DNA of 8,464 nt from a bacterium (GTDB lineage Bacteria; B130-G9). Below, one piece after another: positions 1 to 7,991 of this stretch (its first letter is position 1; each line of letters starts with the position of its first letter). The stretch spans positions 1 through 8,464 of the forward strand of contig JAGHCW010000002.1 of the NCBI GenBank assembly GCA_021160245.1, read 5' to 3'. Made by a program: the position numbers and the translations under genes. The notes beneath the pieces are model-generated. The model did no database searches, was not told the DNA's origin, and saw only the letters and a program-made list of their open reading frames with translations.

Positions 1-210
1 CGCCAACAGCGAATCCGTCTTTTCTTTCGAGACCACCGTGAAAACAAGGATGGACTTCTCCGGCCATATATTCGTGCCAAATTTCTTGCCCGTTTCGCCC
101 TCGCCTATCACATCTCTAATCTCGGTGTAGGCATGTACCCCGTGTTCGATGATCAGTTTCCTGACATCGTTCTGGCGGTCCTGAGGGCAGACGATCATGA
201 CCATCTTCAT
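1..210 (-). CDS. P-II-like signalling protein (PII-NG type), 3' end beyond window
   Basis: The first 70 residues are visible, beginning MKMVMIVCP; the frame is open at the left edge, so the C-terminus is missing. The pattern is that of a small ferredoxin-like P-II fold: a beta strand (MKMVMIV), a helix (DRQNDVRKLIIEHG), a strand (HAYTEIRDVIGEG), then the run TGKKFGTNIWP followed by the strand SILVFTVV. A G-x-G-x-TG...(F/L)GT-x-x-WP segment replaces the classical long T-loop with its uridylylated Tyr. It is typical of P-II-like proteins encoded beside RND efflux genes (the PII-NG group). The start has a good AAGGAG site at 217-222 with a 6-nt spacer, overlapping the stop of the RND gene only 10 nt upstream, so coupled translation is likely. 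By inference it senses a small ligand and modulates the pump. A CutA- or DUF190-like relative is the main alternative; what it binds cannot be seen. Confidence 0.75.
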   Translation of the reverse strand, partial: MKMVMIVCPQDRQNDVRKLIIEHGVHAYTEIRDVIGEGETGKKFGTNIWPEKSILVFTVVSKEKTDSLLA

Positions 211-216
211 GGCTTG

Positions 217-222
217 CTCCTT
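217..222 (-). promoter_or_regulatory. Shine-Dalgarno of the P-II-like gene, overlapping the RND stop codon
   Basis: AAGGAG on the minus strand, 6 nt before the ATG at 210. It shares two bases with the TAA stop (221-223) of the permease gene, so ribosomes finishing the pump gene end on the initiation site of the next gene. Confidence 0.7.
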
Positions 223-3200
223 AGATTTCGGAATGTTCAGTGCTTTCGTTATCGAGCCAGTGATTCTGCTCATCTCGCGGCGAGCTCTTGTGAGCATAGG
301 CCAGGCCATAGACCACGGGAATGAGCACTAACGTAAAGGCAGTGGACATGAATAGGCCGAAGATCAGCGCCCAGGCCAACCCACTGAAAATAGGGTCGAG
401 AGTTATTGGCCAAGCGCCGAGCATAGTGGTGCCCGCAGTCAGGAATATCGGGCGGAAACGAACCGCCCCTGACTCGATGATCGCATCCTTGATGTTCGCG
501 CCTCTTGCGACCATTGCCTTGATGAAATCGATGAGAATGACGGCGTTACGGATGACGATGCCGCCCAGGGCGATCATGCCGATCATCGCGGTAGCGGTGA
601 AGAAGGTCGGGTTGCCAAATCCACCGACAGGATGGTTCGTGATGAGGTTTAGGAGCCAGAACCCGGGCATTATGCCTATCACCATCAGTGGGATGGACAT
701 CATTATGATTATCGGGAGCAGGTAGGAGCGAGTCTCATAAACGAGCAGGACAAAGATGCCGAGCATCGCTATGGAAAAGGATATGCCTAGGTCCCGGAAA
801 ACCTCGAGCGTAATCTTCCACTCGCCCTCGCCACGCCAATTCACGTGAATGCCGGCTGGCAGCGGATGCTTCTTTAGGTACTTCTGCAGCGATAGAATCG
901 CGTATGCAGGCCCAATTCCAGCCATTTCGGATGTTACATAAACCACACGCTTCTGGTTTTTATGATAGATGGTCTTGTCGAACACAGACCTCTCAAAATG
1001 GCCCAACTCACCGATCTGCACGTTGCGGCCGTTGCGGCTCTTGACGACAAGTTTTTTCAAGCGAGCCACATCGGAGCGCTGGTCACGAGGCAGCCTCAGC
1101 ACGATCGGAAGCTCGTTCACCTCGGTAGGAATGCGAACAACACCGGCCTCCATCCCCTCCAGCGAAATGCGCAGCGTCTTGACGATGTCCTCGGTGGAGA
1201 TACCGTTCAGACCTGCCTTCTCCCTGTCAACACGAAAGAACATCTTCCGTTGATTCGCCTCGACTGAGTCGTCAATGTCAACCATGCCCGGTTCGCGCCC
1301 CATGCGCGCCTCTATTAGTTGCGAGGCGCTGATTAGGTCGTCGTAAGAATGGTATGGCTCGCCATATACCTCGGCGACTACAGTGGAGAGGACAGGTGGG
1401 CCTGGCGGGACCTCTACGAGTTTGATATTAGCTCCAGTTCTTTTTGCGATTGCGCTGACAGCGTTTCGGATGCGAAGAACGAGGGAATGGCTGTCCATGT
1501 GACGTTTATCGCGATGGAGAATGTCAACGTGAATGTCCGCGGTGTTCGGGCCCCGTCTTAGGTAATAATGTCGCGCTAGCCCGTTGAAGTTCATTGGAGA
1601 GGGCTCGCCGACCATTGTAGTGAAATCCACCACTTCGGGGACCGTGCGCAGAAGGCCCTCGAGCTGGCGGGCTACGGCGGCCGTGCTCTCGAGCGTTGTG
1701 CCTTCGGGCGTGTCGATAATGAGCTGGAACTCGTTCTTGTTGTCCAAAGGAAGCATCTTGAGCGGCACAGCCCTTGTGAAACCCATCGCTGCGGAGAGAA
1801 TAAAAAGCACAGCAACCACGCCGAGAAAAAGAATGCTCTTCGCCCGAGAATTAACGAGAGGAAGCATTACTCGGCTGTAGATACGAAAGGTGCCTGTCGT
1901 CTTGACGTCGAATGGCTTTTCCTCCTTAATCTTGAGGACTTTGGCGGAAACCCACGGTGCTATCGCAAATGCGACCAACATTGAGATCAACATCGTTAGC
2001 GGCACATTCAGCGCCATCGGACGCATGTACGGCCCCATCATCCCTGTGATGAAGAACATAGGAATGAACGACATGATTATCGCAAGCGTCGCCATGACGA
2101 TTGGACCGGCCACCTCGTTCATTGCTATCGAGACAGATGTTAGTCGCGGATGCCGGCGAAGCGCCAGGTGCCTTGAGATATTGTCCACGCTAACAATCGA
2201 GTTATCGACCAGAAGACCCAACGACAGGATCAGCGCAAATAGTGTGACCCGGTTGATCGTGTAGCCGAAGAGGTAATTGAATAAGAGCGACAACGCATAG
2301 GTGACTGGAACCGCCAAAGCAACCACGAGCCCCTCGCGCCAGCTCATCGCTAACGCCACGAGGCCTATGACCGCGATGACTGCCAGCCCCAGACTCCGAA
2401 CGAGGTTGTTGACCTTGTCGTTGGCGGTCTCGCCGTAGTCCCGAGTGATGCGGTATCTCACCTCGTCAGGGATAAGCTTGCCCTTCAGCTGCCGCATCGT
2501 CTCCTCCACAGCTTTGGCTACCCACACAGCGTTACTGCCTTTTTTCTTCGCAACCGCAATCGTTACCGCCGGATAGGTTTTGGCATCGAACGTCTTGGGA
2601 TCGAAGTTCTCGCCGCGTTCTGGAGAGCCTCCGCGGACTGCGTTCGGATCGCCTGTTGGGCCAAAACCAAACCGCGAATAGGACTCAACCTCCTCCGAAC
2701 CATCAACAACCCTCGCCACATCCCGAAGATAAATGGGCCGGTTCGCCCAAACGCCAACCATGAGGTTCCGAATCTCATCGACATCTCCCAGGAAAGGCCC
2801 TGCTTCGACCTTCACGACCTTGTTATCCTTGTCGAACGAACCGCTCTGCATCTGCGAGTTCGACATTGACAAGGCGCCAGCAATCTGCATCGCCGAAAGG
2901 CCATAGGCCGCCAGCCGCTCGCTGTCCAAATAGCAGTAAACCACTCTCTTCTGCCCACCGTGGATCGTGATCTTTCCCGTGTCTTTGACGGGTTGCAGCC
3001 TCTTGGCGACCTCCTCCGCCACACGATAGAGCTGGTGCGAACCATACCTGCCGCTGAAGAGCGTAATGTCCACGATCGGAACGTCATCGATCTCAATGGG
3101 CTTCACGACCCATCCTGCGACCCCGGGCGGTATCTTGTCCATATTTTGCTGTATCTTGTTGTAGAGCTTTATCAGGCTCCTCTCTCGGTCCTCGTTTACG

Positions 3201-3508
3201 AAAAAACGCACCGTAACAATCGCCATCCCCGGCCGAGATATCGAATACACATACTCCACGCCATCGATCTGGTTGAGCATCCGCTCCAGCCGCGAGGAGG
3301 CCATCTGCTCCACCTCCTCAGCGCTGCCACCTGGGTACTGCACAATCACATCCGCCAGCGGGACAACTATCTGTGGCTCCTCCTCACGGGGCGTCACCTG
3401 AAGCGCGAAGACGCCAGCGACGAGGCTAACAACGATCAGAAGTATGGACAGGTTCCCCTTCAAAAACGAGTCCACTATCCGAGATGTTATTGAGTTCCTA
3501 CTATCCAT
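221..3508 (-). CDS. RND-family efflux permease (AcrB/CusA superfamily), inner membrane
   Basis: 1095 residues, full length for the ACR_tran family (usually about 1000-1100). It is a proton-driven inner-membrane pump and would form the trimeric core of a tripartite exporter with the adaptor and TolC-like genes upstream. TM1 is at about 18-36, followed by the conserved REEEP-x-I segment (41-47) and the first porter domain. TM2-TM6 span about 371-525, TM7 is at about 558-577, a second porter domain follows, and TM8-TM12 span about 905-1072. The TM4 proton-relay motif reads GLLVDNSIV, with D435 present but N436 where AcrB has its second Asp. TM10 reads GGIVIRNAVILIDF, with R987 where AcrB has Lys940. 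The C-terminal GAVRFRP and LDPIFSGLAWALIFG blocks are well kept. The start ATG has a G-rich Shine-Dalgarno at 3515-3521 overlapping the adaptor stop. Substrate (drug, solvent or metal) is not predictable. Confidence 0.95.
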   Translation of the reverse strand: MDSRNSITSRIVDSFLKGNLSILLIVVSLVAGVFALQVTPREEEPQIVVPLADVIVQYPGGSAEEVEQMASSRLERMLNQIDGVEYVYSISRPGMAIVTVRFFVNEDRERSLIKLYNKIQQNMDKIPPGVAGWVVKPIEIDDVPIVDITLFSGRYGSHQLYRVAEEVAKRLQPVKDTGKITIHGGQKRVVYCYLDSERLAAYGLSAMQIAGALSMSNSQMQSGSFDKDNKVVKVEAGPFLGDVDEIRNLMVGVWANRPIYLRDVARVVDGSEEVESYSRFGFGPTGDPNAVRGGSPERGENFDPKTFDAKTYPAVTIAVAKKKGSNAVWVAKAVEETMRQLKGKLIPDEVRYRITRDYGETANDKVNNLVRSLGLAVIAVIGLVALAMSWREGLVVALAVPVTYALSLLFNYLFGYTINRVTLFALILSLGLLVDNSIVSVDNISRHLALRRHPRLTSVSIAMNEVAGPIVMATLAIIMSFIPMFFITGMMGPYMRPMALNVPLTMLISMLVAFAIAPWVSAKVLKIKEEKPFDVKTTGTFRIYSRVMLPLVNSRAKSILFLGVVAVLFILSAAMGFTRAVPLKMLPLDNKNEFQLIIDTPEGTTLESTAAVARQLEGLLRTVPEVVDFTTMVGEPSPMNFNGLARHYYLRRGPNTADIHVDILHRDKRHMDSHSLVLRIRNAVSAIAKRTGANIKLVEVPPGPPVLSTVVAEVYGEPYHSYDDLISASQLIEARMGREPGMVDIDDSVEANQRKMFFRVDREKAGLNGISTEDIVKTLRISLEGMEAGVVRIPTEVNELPIVLRLPRDQRSDVARLKKLVVKSRNGRNVQIGELGHFERSVFDKTIYHKNQKRVVYVTSEMAGIGPAYAILSLQKYLKKHPLPAGIHVNWRGEGEWKITLEVFRDLGISFSIAMLGIFVLLVYETRSYLLPIIIMMSIPLMVIGIMPGFWLLNLITNHPVGGFGNPTFFTATAMIGMIALGGIVIRNAVILIDFIKAMVARGANIKDAIIESGAVRFRPIFLTAGTTMLGAWPITLDPIFSGLAWALIFGLFMSTAFTLVLIPVVYGLAYAHKSSPRDEQNHWLDNESTEHSEI

Positions 3509-3514
3509 GCGACG

Positions 3515-3521
3515 CCCCCCT
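3515..3521 (-). promoter_or_regulatory. Shine-Dalgarno of the RND gene, overlapping the adaptor stop codon
   Basis: Reads AGGGGGG on the minus strand, 6 nt before the ATG at 3508, and overlaps the TAG stop (3520-3522) of the adaptor gene. This supports the chosen start and suggests translational coupling between adaptor and pump. Confidence 0.55.
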
Positions 3522-4575
3522 AACCCTTGATCGGTTTAGTCAGGATTACATCGCCGTCGGAAAGCCCAGAAAGAATCTCAACATCCTCTCCATAGGAGGC
3601 GCCTGTCTTGACGAGCCTCCGAACGGCGCGATTGCCCTCAACGACCTGAACGAGTTCCAGCTGCCCCACCCGGTACACTGCGGAGGCCGGCGCTAGAATA
3701 GACGGACGCTTGTCATCGAGTACCCACACCCGCCCGAATGTGCCGGGCAACACCTGCCCATGAACACCGTCTATGTGCACCTTCACCAGCTGCGTCCGGC
3801 TCGGCGGGTCAACCTCCCCTACGATCTGGGTAACCTCTCCATGAAACACACCTAGAGGGCGGTCCAGCTTGACATCGACCGCATCCCCGAGCTTGAGCTT
3901 CTCCACAAGCCTAAGCGGCACCGGAACCTCAATCCGCATCTTGTTCTGGTCGTAAACTCCAAGAAGAACCTGACCAGGATTTGCTAAATCCCCCACCTCG
4001 ACCTGGCGGTCCGTAACCCGCCCATCTATCGGCGACCTGATTTTAGTGAATGTCAACATCACTTTTATCCGCTCAACCTGTGCCTTTGCTCCATTAAGGT
4101 CCGACCTCACCGCCGTCAGAGCCTGGTCCGTCGTCGCCTGCGTTTTCATCAGCCTCTGTGTCCGCCTATATTCTATCCTCGCATGATTCAGACGAGCCGT
4201 TCCAGCCGCCAACTGCTCAAGCAACTCCCTGTCGTCCAATGCTATCAGCAACTGACCAGCCTTCACCGGGTCCCCCGCCGAAACGTAAACATCCTGCACA
4301 TACGCGCTCAGCCGAGAGCTCAGGTGAATCTCGCTCTCCGACACGCACGTCCCAACTATGTCTATACGAGGCGCAACCAACTGCGTCTTGACACGGAGAG
4401 TCTCCGCACCACGCGGGACCGGGACCCCACTCCCGATCGATATGTCAGCCGGCCCAAGCTTGTGTTCAAAACTGCCTCCCGACCAGGCAATAAGTAGCGC
4501 CACTCCACCTATGCCAAGCGCAAACCTCGCCAGTATGCCGAGCTTTGACTTCCCATTCACGCTTTTTTCTTTCAT
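3520..4575 (-). CDS. RND efflux membrane-fusion protein (periplasmic adaptor, HlyD/AcrA family)
   Basis: 351 residues from the chosen ATG. An N-terminal hydrophobic stretch (about 11-32) is a signal anchor or signal peptide; no lipobox Cys is present, unlike lipidated AcrA. The adaptor modules then appear in order: first half of the biotinyl-lipoyl domain (about 86-115, with VSAGDPVKAGQLL), a short alpha-hairpin (about 116-172), the second lipoyl half (about 177-207, with IRSPIDGRV), a beta-barrel (about 214-285, ending LPGTFGRV) and a membrane-proximal domain (about 290-350, with GLSDGDVIL). It would bridge the TolC-like protein and the RND pump in the periplasm. The frame stays open to an ATG at 4629, but that site has no Shine-Dalgarno and adds an acidic 18-residue leader before the signal. 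The ATG at 4575 has AAGGAG 6 nt upstream and was chosen. The gene lies 79 nt after the TolC-like gene and 11 nt before the pump. Confidence 0.93.
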   Translation of the reverse strand: MKEKSVNGKSKLGILARFALGIGGVALLIAWSGGSFEHKLGPADISIGSGVPVPRGAETLRVKTQLVAPRIDIVGTCVSESEIHLSSRLSAYVQDVYVSAGDPVKAGQLLIALDDRELLEQLAAGTARLNHARIEYRRTQRLMKTQATTDQALTAVRSDLNGAKAQVERIKVMLTFTKIRSPIDGRVTDRQVEVGDLANPGQVLLGVYDQNKMRIEVPVPLRLVEKLKLGDAVDVKLDRPLGVFHGEVTQIVGEVDPPSRTQLVKVHIDGVHGQVLPGTFGRVWVLDDKRPSILAPASAVYRVGQLELVQVVEGNRAVRRLVKTGASYGEDVEILSGLSDGDVILTKPIKG

Positions 4576-4581
4576 AGCAAT

Positions 4582-4587
4582 CTCCTT
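4582..4587 (-). promoter_or_regulatory. Shine-Dalgarno that decides the adaptor start
   Basis: AAGGAG on the minus strand with a 6-nt spacer to the ATG at 4575. The upstream in-frame ATG at 4629 has no comparable site, so this element argues for the 351-residue protein over the 369-residue one. Confidence 0.75.
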
Positions 4588-4654
4588 GTCGTCTGAATCA
4601 TCTATGTCCCAATTCGCAACTTTGACCATTTCTCAGAAGCCAACCAACATCCCT

Positions 4655-5992
4655 TCACTTCTCCACGAAGTCCGCTATCAGCTCCCCTTGAGCACGGCGC
4701 ACATTCGACATCGCCGTCAAATAATCGTAACAAGCCGCTACTTTTCGAGTCCGCATGGCTGTCAGCCCCACTTGCGCAGTCAGCAGATCTGTGATGTTGG
4801 CTGCTCCCTCCTTGTAGCGCTCACTGGTTATGCGCAACGCTTCCTCAGCGCTCTCGACGCTCTTCTTCACAACAGAAAGCCGCTTGAACGCCTCGACCGA
4901 GCGCAGATAGGCCTGCTTCAAATCCAATCGAAGGTTAGCCCCGACCTTCTCCTGGTCCCTCTGCGATGCGCGCCACTTCGCCTTCTTCTGAGCGATTGCG
5001 CTCGGCCTTCGAAAGCCAGTGAACAAGTCCCAACGAGCGTTTACGCCAACCATGTAACTCCCTTGCGGGTCCGCATGATAATCCGTATCCCAGTCGTAGG
5101 ACGCAAAAGCGTTTACCACCGGGAAATACCCTCGTATCGCACTGCTATACGCGCGCTGTTTGAGCAACATCATACGTTTCGCAGCGGCAAGCTCCGGCCG
5201 TTTGTCTATCGTTCCCATGCCCTGCTTTGATGGGTCAATGCACTCGCCCTGCTCTGCCGGCGCCGGAAACCCTGCGGAAGGGATGATGTCCTTTCCTATC
5301 GCCGTATTCAGCGCAGCTATCGCCAACTGCACGCCGTTCTGCGCCTTGATCAGGTCATCCTTGGCCTGCGCTAACTTCACATCCAAGTTCAAGACATCCG
5401 TCTTGAACACTGCGCCCGCCGAAAACCGACCCATAGAGACCCGCAAACTCTCCTTCAAACTCTCTACCGACGCCTGCTGAACCACCACGAAAGCCTCAGC
5501 CTCCAGCACGCCATAGTAGCCACGCACCACCTGATATATGAGCTCATTCTGAACCACAAGCAGACGCGCCTGCCGAGCCTGTTCCCCAAGTTTCGCCTTC
5601 GCCACCTCGATGAACCGCTGGCCACCATCGAACACCCGAAACTGTGCCCCGACCGAAAACCTCATGTTGTCCGTGTCGCCCGGCCAATTCGGGTCAAACT
5701 CAGGTGCACGCATGTCCAAGTTACGCTGGTTCAGACTCATCATGAACGCCTGCGGAGCGTTGTCAGTCTTCGTGTAGTTCCCTGAAACATAAACCTGAGG
5801 ATAAAAGGCCGAACGTGCTTGACCGATCATCTTCCTCGCCGCCTCGACCCTCTGAGCACTCGCTTGAATGCCCGGATTGCTAGCGAGCGCGACCGCAACA
5901 CAGTCCCTGGGCGTTATGTCATCAGCCCGCAAGCTCTGAACCAAAACTCCCGCAACAATCGCCGCTATGGCTACTGCCGTTGCGATACGCAT
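4655..5992 (-). CDS. TolC-family outer-membrane efflux protein
   Basis: 445 residues from the chosen ATG, close to the usual 420-480 for outer-membrane efflux proteins. A clean signal peptide (MRIATAVAIAAIVAGVLVQS, likely cleaved after LRA near residue 23) precedes two OEP repeats at about 26-233 and 261-440. The internal duplication is visible as RFSAGAVFKTDVLNLDVKLA (190-209) and RYKEGAANITDLLTAQVGLT (392-411), the paired helical motifs of TolC folds. It would trimerise as the exit duct of the tripartite pump. Start choice is uncertain. The frame extends to an ATG at 6073 that overlaps the repressor stop by 8 nt and has AAGGAGG at a tight 3-nt spacing, but that adds a 27-residue leader with three acidic residues before the signal. 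The ATG at 5992 has GGGAG at 7 nt and gives a canonical signal peptide. Confidence 0.92.
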   Translation of the reverse strand: MRIATAVAIAAIVAGVLVQSLRADDITPRDCVAVALASNPGIQASAQRVEAARKMIGQARSAFYPQVYVSGNYTKTDNAPQAFMMSLNQRNLDMRAPEFDPNWPGDTDNMRFSVGAQFRVFDGGQRFIEVAKAKLGEQARQARLLVVQNELIYQVVRGYYGVLEAEAFVVVQQASVESLKESLRVSMGRFSAGAVFKTDVLNLDVKLAQAKDDLIKAQNGVQLAIAALNTAIGKDIIPSAGFPAPAEQGECIDPSKQGMGTIDKRPELAAAKRMMLLKQRAYSSAIRGYFPVVNAFASYDWDTDYHADPQGSYMVGVNARWDLFTGFRRPSAIAQKKAKWRASQRDQEKVGANLRLDLKQAYLRSVEAFKRLSVVKKSVESAEEALRITSERYKEGAANITDLLTAQVGLTAMRTRKVAACYDYLTAMSNVRRAQGELIADFVEK

Positions 5993-5999
5993 CTTGCGA

Positions 6000-6004
6000 C
6001 TCCC
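6000..6004 (-). promoter_or_regulatory. Shine-Dalgarno supporting the internal TolC-like start
   Basis: GGGAG on the minus strand, 7 nt before the ATG at 5992. The competing site is AAGGAGG at 6077-6083, 3 nt before the ATG at 6073. The second is a better match but too close for optimal initiation; both could be used. Confidence 0.5.
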
Positions 6005-6065
6005 ATAAACGCGGGACCGCCTCGACGAATGCCAATCGTCCAATTCAGTCCAAATCCATGTTCCC

Positions 6066-6383
6066 CTATTCATTTGCCTCCTTACCTCTCATGCACTGCA
6101 AAATCCCAACACACCGTTCATCCGCTATTGAGTAGAAAACCTCTTTGCCCTGACGCCTCGCCTTAATGATGCTAGCACGCTTCATCAGATTCAGATGCTG
6201 CGAGGCGGTTGCCTGCGGGATGCCGAGAGCTTTACTGATCTCATGGACGGGCACCTCGCTTCGGCATCGTAGTTGCTCGATTATCCTCAGCCGCTGGGGA
6301 TGCGCTAGCATGCGCAGGACGTCAGCGACGCGTCGAAGCAGTTCGATAGACAGAAGCTCATTTTGTTCTTGTTTGTCAATCAT
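6066..6383 (-). CDS. ArsR/SmtB-family winged-helix transcriptional repressor
   Basis: 105 residues from the chosen ATG, the usual ArsR size. Visible parts are the N-terminal dimer helix (LLRRVADVLRMLAHPQRLRI, with the family A/S-HPxR motif at about 27-31), the helix-turn-helix (VHEISKALGIPQATASQHL, about 46-64, with recognition helix QATASQHLNLMKRASI), and the beta-wing (RRQGKEVFYSI, about 76-86). The metal-binding ELCVCD motif of CadC/SmtB is absent; the matching stretch reads SEVPVHE. Three cysteines (C40, C91, C97) might serve a thiol or metal sensor, but their spacing fits no sensor class I can name with confidence. As first gene of the efflux operon, with a repeat in its own promoter, it is probably an autorepressor relieved by the pump's substrate. 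An in-frame TTG at 6392 lies inside the -10 box and so should not be in the transcript; ATG at 6383 was chosen. Confidence 0.9.
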   Translation of the reverse strand: MIDKQEQNELLSIELLRRVADVLRMLAHPQRLRIIEQLRCRSEVPVHEISKALGIPQATASQHLNLMKRASIIKARRQGKEVFYSIADERCVGILQCMRGKEANE

Positions 6384-6391
6384 CACAGTCA

Positions 6392-6419
6392 ACTATAGTG
6401 TCATATTCATATATGTCAA
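6392..6419 (-). promoter_or_regulatory. Sigma70-type promoter of the efflux operon
   Basis: On the minus strand, TTGACA (6414-6419) is followed by a 16-nt spacer and TATAGT (6392-6397), a near-consensus -35/-10 pair. Transcription would start about 6-8 nt downstream, near 6384-6386, only 1-3 nt before the repressor ATG at 6383. No other promoter of this quality was seen inside the operon, so it probably drives all five genes. Confidence 0.75.
6402..6415 (-). promoter_or_regulatory. Possible ArsR operator in the promoter spacer
   Basis: An inverted repeat, CATAT-TCAT-ATATG on the plus strand, lies between and partly over the -35 box. ArsR-family operators are typically AT-rich imperfect palindromes covering the promoter, so a repressor bound here would block RNA polymerase. 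The arms are only 5 bp in AT-rich DNA, so chance is possible. Confidence 0.45.
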
Positions 6420-7067: not shown

Positions 7068-7991
7068 ATGAAAGTTTTAGTAACCGGTGGTGCGGGATTT
7101 ATCGCGTCGCACTTAGTTGACAGGTTGATTGCAGACGGGCATTCGGTTGCGGTTATCGATGATCTCTCGACGGGCTTTAGGGGGAACATCAATCCCAAGG
7201 CGACGTTTTATGAAATGGACATTCGGGACAAGGCGATCTCCGAGGTGTTCGCCAAGGAGCGGCCAGATATGGTCGATCATCACGCGGCGCAAATGGCGGT
7301 CATAAAGTCCGTCTCAGAACCACAATTCGACGCCGACGTCAATATCGGTGGCTCGCTCAATATTATCCTCAACTGCCTCAAATACAAAGTCAAGAAGCTC
7401 GTCTATATCTCGACCGGCGGCGCCGTCTATGGCGAGCCTCAGTATCTGCCCGTCGATGAGAAGCATTCCATAAATCCGATCTCACAGTACGGCATCTCAA
7501 AGCACACGGTTGAGCACTACTTGTTTCTCTACAACCTGACGGATGGGCTGAAATACACCGCGCTGCGATACCCTAATGTCTATGGCCCGAGGCAGTATCC
7601 ATTCGGCGAGGCGGGCGTTACGGCGATCTTCTCGGCCAAGATGTTGAAGGGCGAGACAGTAACCATCTTTGGCGATGGTGAGCAGCTGCGCGATTATGTC
7701 TATGTCGGGGACATTGTTGAGGCGAACATTCTTGCGATGACGAATCCGGCGTCGGACAACGAGATCATCAACATCGGCTCTGCAAGAGGTTCCTCGGTCA
7801 ACGAGATATTTCGAATAATCAAGGAGGCGACAGGCTTTGGCGGCGAGCCAATATACGCTCCCGCGCGCAAGGGCGAGGTCTATAAAATCTACATCTCCGC
7901 CGCCAAAGCGAAGAAACTCGTCGGTTGGGAGCCAAAAGTCTCGTTCGAGGAAGGCCTAAAGCGGCTGGTCGAGTATCAACGCAGCAAATGA
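7068..7991 (+). CDS. NAD-dependent epimerase/dehydratase, extended SDR (UDP-glucose 4-epimerase-like)
   Basis: 307 residues, normal for GalE-like extended SDRs (about 300-340). It opens at once with the Rossmann strand and dinucleotide motif TGGAGFIASHL; the third glycine of GxxGxxG is Ala13. D31-D32 end beta-2 and favour NAD over NADP. The HHAAQ block (71-75) is a variant of the common D-H-x-A-A. The active site is STGGAVYG (115-122) with the YxxxK pair Y141/K145. The loops NVYGPRQ (170s) and QLRDYVYVGDI (210s) are typical of nucleotide-sugar epimerases. It likely interconverts hexose epimers (for example UDP-Glc/UDP-Gal) in the cytoplasm for cell-surface polysaccharide synthesis. GalE, a UDP-glucuronate or GlcNAc epimerase, or a dTDP-sugar dehydratase relative cannot be separated from sequence alone. 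It stands alone on this strand, with a convergent gene downstream, so it gives no pathway context here. Confidence 0.9.
   Translation: MKVLVTGGAGFIASHLVDRLIADGHSVAVIDDLSTGFRGNINPKATFYEMDIRDKAISEVFAKERPDMVDHHAAQMAVIKSVSEPQFDADVNIGGSLNIILNCLKYKVKKLVYISTGGAVYGEPQYLPVDEKHSINPISQYGISKHTVEHYLFLYNLTDGLKYTALRYPNVYGPRQYPFGEAGVTAIFSAKMLKGETVTIFGDGEQLRDYVYVGDIVEANILAMTNPASDNEIINIGSARGSSVNEIFRIIKEATGFGGEPIYAPARKGEVYKIYISAAKAKKLVGWEPKVSFEEGLKRLVEYQRSK

Follow-up and report, generated by a model that had tools for sequence, protein, structure and literature searches.

A PG0541-family P-II-like gene behind an RND pump gene in an operon headed by an ArsR repressor gene

Organization of the operon and its promoter

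The window, that is, the whole stretch of DNA analysed here, is the complete contig C230 (8464 bp) of a 3.43 Mb draft genome with a completeness of about 95%. Five genes are arranged head to tail on the minus strand in the order ArsR, TolC-type channel (OEP), adaptor (MFP), RND pump, and P-II-like protein. The first encodes an ArsR/SmtB-type repressor (6066..6383; NF033788, 87.4 bits against a cut-off of 55), in agreement with the preliminary description of this DNA, which had placed an ArsR gene at the head of the operon. Its open reading frame extends from 6392, but the ATG at 6383 is the likelier start. The repressor gene is followed by those of the TolC-type outer-membrane channel (4655..6073; PF02321, 209.8 bits), the periplasmic adaptor or membrane fusion protein (3520..4629; TIGR01730, 186 bits, cut-off 94.9), and the RND inner-membrane pump subunit of 1095 aa (221..3508; PF00873, 529 bits). 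The P-II-like gene (1..210) is the last in the operon. As first described, its ATG lies 10 nt past the TAA stop of the pump gene, and its Shine-Dalgarno sequence AAGGAG overlaps that stop (TCTAAGGAGCAAGCCATG). Outside the operon, the window contains a gene for an NAD-dependent epimerase (7068-7991) and, at the other contig end (8211-8462), a fragment of a possible Ig-like protein (Big_13 below cut-off).

A strong promoter-like sequence of the operon, TTGACA-16-TATAGT (11 of 12 matches), is located at 6392..6419 on the minus strand, and a candidate ArsR operator on the same strand (6399..6418), the imperfect palindrome TGACATAT-ATGA-ATATGACA, sits inside it. The promoter layout is shared with four related operons (L023, L024, L025, and L029). 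The repressor message is probably leaderless because, in all five operons, which come from different phyla, only 7-8 nt separate the -10 hexamer from the arsR ATG.

The window ArsR and its close relatives share a single cysteine (TILDCIR) and have no classical CxC motif; therefore, the inducer is not readable from the sequence. Dithiol or persulfide sensing of the BigR/SqrR type was considered for the window ArsR and dropped, since only one cysteine is present in this protein and its close kin. ArsR relatives that are 40% away (L076, L082, and others) carry both cysteines. Related pump operons with BigR/SqrR-like two-cysteine ArsR genes were found in L066, L071, L076, L082, L090, and L091, and YgaP-like, rhodanese, and glutaredoxin-like genes are located downstream in L076. 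The gene contents hint at a sulfur-stress role of this pump branch.

The contig end cuts the P-II-like gene after 70 of about 96 codons. The preliminary description had looked to flanking sequence for the full gene. The missing C-terminus was not found among the other contigs of this genome, so that none continues the gene, but full-length relatives of 96 aa are available in L024 and L025; the L025 gene occupies 13192-13482, its pump gene 9986-13195. In both relatives, the C-terminal part ends near LPVEEVI, without a C-loop. Within the phylum, the window DNA recurs in just one further genome (G003); the match begins only at position 522, so that the G003 contig breaks off within the pump gene.

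Family assignment and fold of the P-II-like protein

The 70 residues encoded in the window match the P-II family PF00543 with 34.3 bits (cut-off 25) and NF045581, the "PG0541 family transporter-associated protein", with 55.2 bits (curated cut-off 45). With a PG0541 profile made without its own clade, the window protein scored 57.2 bits; the corresponding scores were 20.8 bits for SbtB, 4.7 bits for canonical P-II, and 0.4 bits for PII-NG. By profile, the groups nearest to the PG0541 family followed the same order: SbtB (probability 96.7, with an SbtB profile built from 3 sequences), canonical P-II (88.7), and PII-NG (67.4). In the phylogenetic tree, a branch with 100/100 support sets the canonical and PII-NG proteins, as one group, apart from the others, and the window protein is placed outside the PII-NG clade (100/98); the deeper forks are weak, and most bootstrap trees do not recover PG0541 as one side of a branch. 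The window protein had no Pfam match to CutA, DUF190, or DUF3240 at E values up to 10, where HMMER filters may drop weak ones, and DUF3240 was matched by one of 38 relatives (E 0.005). A PDB sequence search with the single P-II-like protein gave no match, and a search of viral contigs gave one weak match only.

The relatives of the window protein are short (median 96 residues, n=43), and their loops differ from those of other P-II proteins. None of the 43 has the GDGKIF-type B-loop or the RIxxGE C-loop, whereas both occur in 6/6 PII-NG and 9/9 canonical proteins; in the window, the contig ends before this region. The canonical T-loop sequence YRG[AS]EY with Tyr51 was also found in none of the 43. 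The T-loop segment of the window protein is TGKKFGTNIWP (residues 40-50; 61..93, minus strand), and Pro50 of its W-P motif is the sole invariant column over 38 family members. The T-loop is thus altered, as had been noticed at first, but it is not peculiar to this gene: it follows the consensus of the PG0541 family. In canonical P-II proteins, the cleft for ATP and 2-oxoglutarate is formed by the B-loop, the C-loop, and the base of the T-loop (PMC8395244). Because the first two are absent in the relatives, the ligand site must be remodelled.

A structure of L025, the nearest full-length relative (56% identical over the shared part), was predicted as a monomer with a pLDDT of 82, its T-loop region (39-47) being uncertain. 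The model matched GlnK (2gnk, Z 12.1), CPII (11.4), and SbtB (11.3), values that tie within error. Judging from this model of a homolog, the window protein has a ferredoxin-like P-II-type fold. The comparisons place it inside the P-II superfamily, as originally proposed. On the sequence evidence, the gene is a PG0541-family member and not PII-NG, the group that had served as the reference in the preliminary description. The family has already been named, and the window protein adds a member in a new pump clade with a different repressor. The literature searched gives no function for the PG0541 family; PG0541 itself appears there solely as a conserved hypothetical protein.

Linkage to RND genes and the two P-II lineages of the genome

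Among 386 diverse genomes, 50 had a match to NF045581, 42 of them above the cut-off. A contig end truncates one of these 42, leaving 41 with readable context. The P-II gene adjoins an RND gene in 39 of the 41, with the RND gene directly upstream in 38; in most cases, the two genes overlap or lie no more than about 100 nt apart. The two exceptions without an RND neighbour are L130 and L016. Chance pairing is therefore excluded, and the coupling first seen at this locus is conserved in relatives. The distance matrices of the P-II and RND proteins are correlated (r 0.69, with at most 0.20 in 2000 shuffles), which partly reflects shared species history. The commonest gene order is TetR-OEP-MFP-RND-P-II, and ArsR replaces TetR in the window and its close relatives. 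The repressor thus varies (TetR in many, ArsR here, or none seen), and the RND and P-II genes stay paired. Retention of the P-II gene while the repressor switches between TetR and ArsR suggests that its partner is the pump rather than the repressor.

Other contexts were also observed. The PG0541-like gene of L016 (8265-8576) has a DHODB/NfnB-like reductase pair on one side and a radical SAM gene on the other, and the L130 member has a PF03901 glycosyltransferase gene two genes further on. A PG0541-like gene of L165, with a near relative in L167, lies behind an RNase E/G-like gene, and a P-II-like gene of L166 directly follows that of the inorganic-carbon transporter DabA.

The window pump scored 260.6 bits with TIGR00914, the best CusA/CzcA model, against a cut-off of 701; by this model, it is not of the CusA/CzcA (HME) type. 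It is 92% identical to a pump from Candidatus Coatesbacteria and 40-63% identical to pumps within its own separate RND clade; with the pumps that accompany most PG0541 proteins, it shares about 24% identity. A minority of its 80 closest relatives have a P-II gene as partner, and the pump tree shows at least five changes in the presence of this gene, which therefore behaves as an optional module. Alignment columns of the pump that vary with the presence of the P-II gene lie mostly in the periplasm or the membrane and are linked to lineage, with no cytosolic signature among them, and the length of the pump's C-terminal tail does not differ with and without the P-II gene. Among the neighbour proteins of related pumps (82 scanned), a YgaP-like membrane protein occurred 11 times and DUF1538 6 times. 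In Gammaproteobacteria (L060, L062, L064, L067, L070, L085, and L096), pumps of the same clade are often followed by DUF1538 membrane proteins, and in L064 a P-II-like ORF with a weak profile match also lies downstream of the pump (14794-15144).

The genome has exactly two P-II matches, each immediately following an RND gene, and about six RND pumps, only two of which have a P-II neighbour. At a completeness of about 95%, the genome yielded no ammonium transporter, and the remaining three of the four genomes sampled from the phylum had no P-II match. The second P-II gene, on contig 47 (C47), follows a CusA-like pump gene. The five nearest relatives of its product in the diverse sample are all encoded behind OEP-MFP-CusA-like operons; hence, the C47 protein is the PII-NG of this genome. 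A single genome thus has two different P-II lineages, each with an RND pump of its own; this suggests that the P-II/RND pairing arose at least twice.

Proposed control of the pump

RND pumps are trimers. In the AmtB-GlnK and SbtA-SbtB complexes, a P-II trimer sits on a transporter trimer with its T-loop inserted from the cytosol (PMC8352866), and control by P-II proteins appears to be restricted to trimeric transporters (PMC10710835). With the pump as the conserved partner, modulation of the pump is the best reading of the locus. We propose, with a probability of about 0.55, that the P-II-like protein, as a trimer, binds the RND pump from its cytosolic side and modulates it in response to a ligand, while ArsR controls transcription. 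The P-II-like protein would form a trimer, as other P-II proteins do, and would bind the pump trimer via its short T-loop and the W-P motif. Pump activity would then shift with a ligand in the cytosol, for which an adenine nucleotide, as for SbtB, is the likeliest candidate. The amount of the pump would be set by ArsR, and its working rate by the P-II-like protein. Such dual control, already suggested in the preliminary description, can fairly be inferred from the gene content. The comings and goings of the P-II gene on the pump tree also fit the expectation for a modulator. Against this reading stand the comparison of pumps with and without the gene, which yielded no cytosolic signature, and the two above-cut-off members that have no RND neighbour.

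The window protein shares with the PG0541 family an above-cut-off profile match, the size of the relatives, the W-P motif, and the RND neighbour, but its operon starts with ArsR instead of TetR and its pump belongs to a separate RND clade. The CusABC/CzcABC-linked PII-NG proteins, represented here by C47, share the superfamily and the position after an RND gene; they are of another lineage, retain the GDGKIF and RIxxGE loops, and accompany CusA-like pumps. SbtB of the bicarbonate system SbtA-SbtB is the nearest tested profile outside the family and resembles the window protein in its fold, its altered loops, and its transporter-adjacent gene. However, the similarity is weak (20.8 bits), and its partner SbtA is a sodium/bicarbonate symporter, not an RND pump. 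GlnK-AmtB likewise combines the P-II fold with a gene beside that of a trimeric transporter, but the Tyr51 motif and the B-loop and C-loop signatures of GlnK are absent in the PG0541 family, and the present genome has no ammonium transporter.

The small accessory proteins AcrZ and WatS1 tune RND pumps (PMC10710835), and the P-II-like protein might similarly be a positive assembly or activity factor that senses no ligand. We consider this unlikely, because the listed proteins have only 49-55 aa and AcrZ consists of one helix in the membrane, whereas the window protein has a P-II fold, which is used elsewhere for ligand sensing. Alternatively, the protein could act on transcription by binding the local repressor and releasing or reinforcing it according to a cytosolic signal. 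P-II proteins are known to bind transcription factors, such as PipX and AmtR, and an ArsR gene belongs to the operon here, as a TetR gene does in many relatives. However, the P-II gene directly follows the RND gene, distant from the repressor gene, and the repressor changes or is not seen while the RND and P-II genes remain paired, which makes such a role improbable.

The protein might also be a soluble, CutA-type sensor of metals or toxicants, or a chaperone, that passes the substrate to the pump. CutA shares the P-II fold, and for a P-II-type gene located next to czcABC in Geobacter, a role as a cobalt sensor has been proposed (PMC7726332). The Geobacter gene, however, is a PII-NG and thus of a different lineage, and the window protein has no Pfam match to CutA or DUF190. 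In addition, judged by the CusA/CzcA model, the pump is not an HME-type one, and the ArsR proteins closest to that of the window share one cysteine and have no classical CxC motif; there is little chance that this explanation applies. A true PII-NG, that is, a GlnB/GlnK-derived sensor of ATP and 2-oxoglutarate on a heavy-metal pump, would agree with the superfamily and the adjacent RND gene but is highly improbable given the profile scores, the loops missing from all 43 relatives, and the 100/100 branch that isolates the canonical and PII-NG proteins.

The usual view is that RND pumps are regulated through gene expression. If modulation by the docked P-II-like trimer is correct, the assembled pump would be switched by a sensor in the cytosol, which would add a fast second layer of control. 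The PG0541 family is common, and its RND linkage is nearly strict. Tentatively, and with somewhat less confidence than the reading of this locus, it may represent a third class of P-II transporter gates besides GlnK-AmtB and SbtB-SbtA, in which ligand-responsive trimers plug or tune RND pumps at their cytosolic face; the family would have been recruited independently of PII-NG and would occur in roughly a tenth of the sampled bacterial genomes. The pumps of L025, with a P-II gene, and L029, without one, offer a natural comparison. The instructive point of this locus is that a single genome carries two P-II lineages on two RND pumps.
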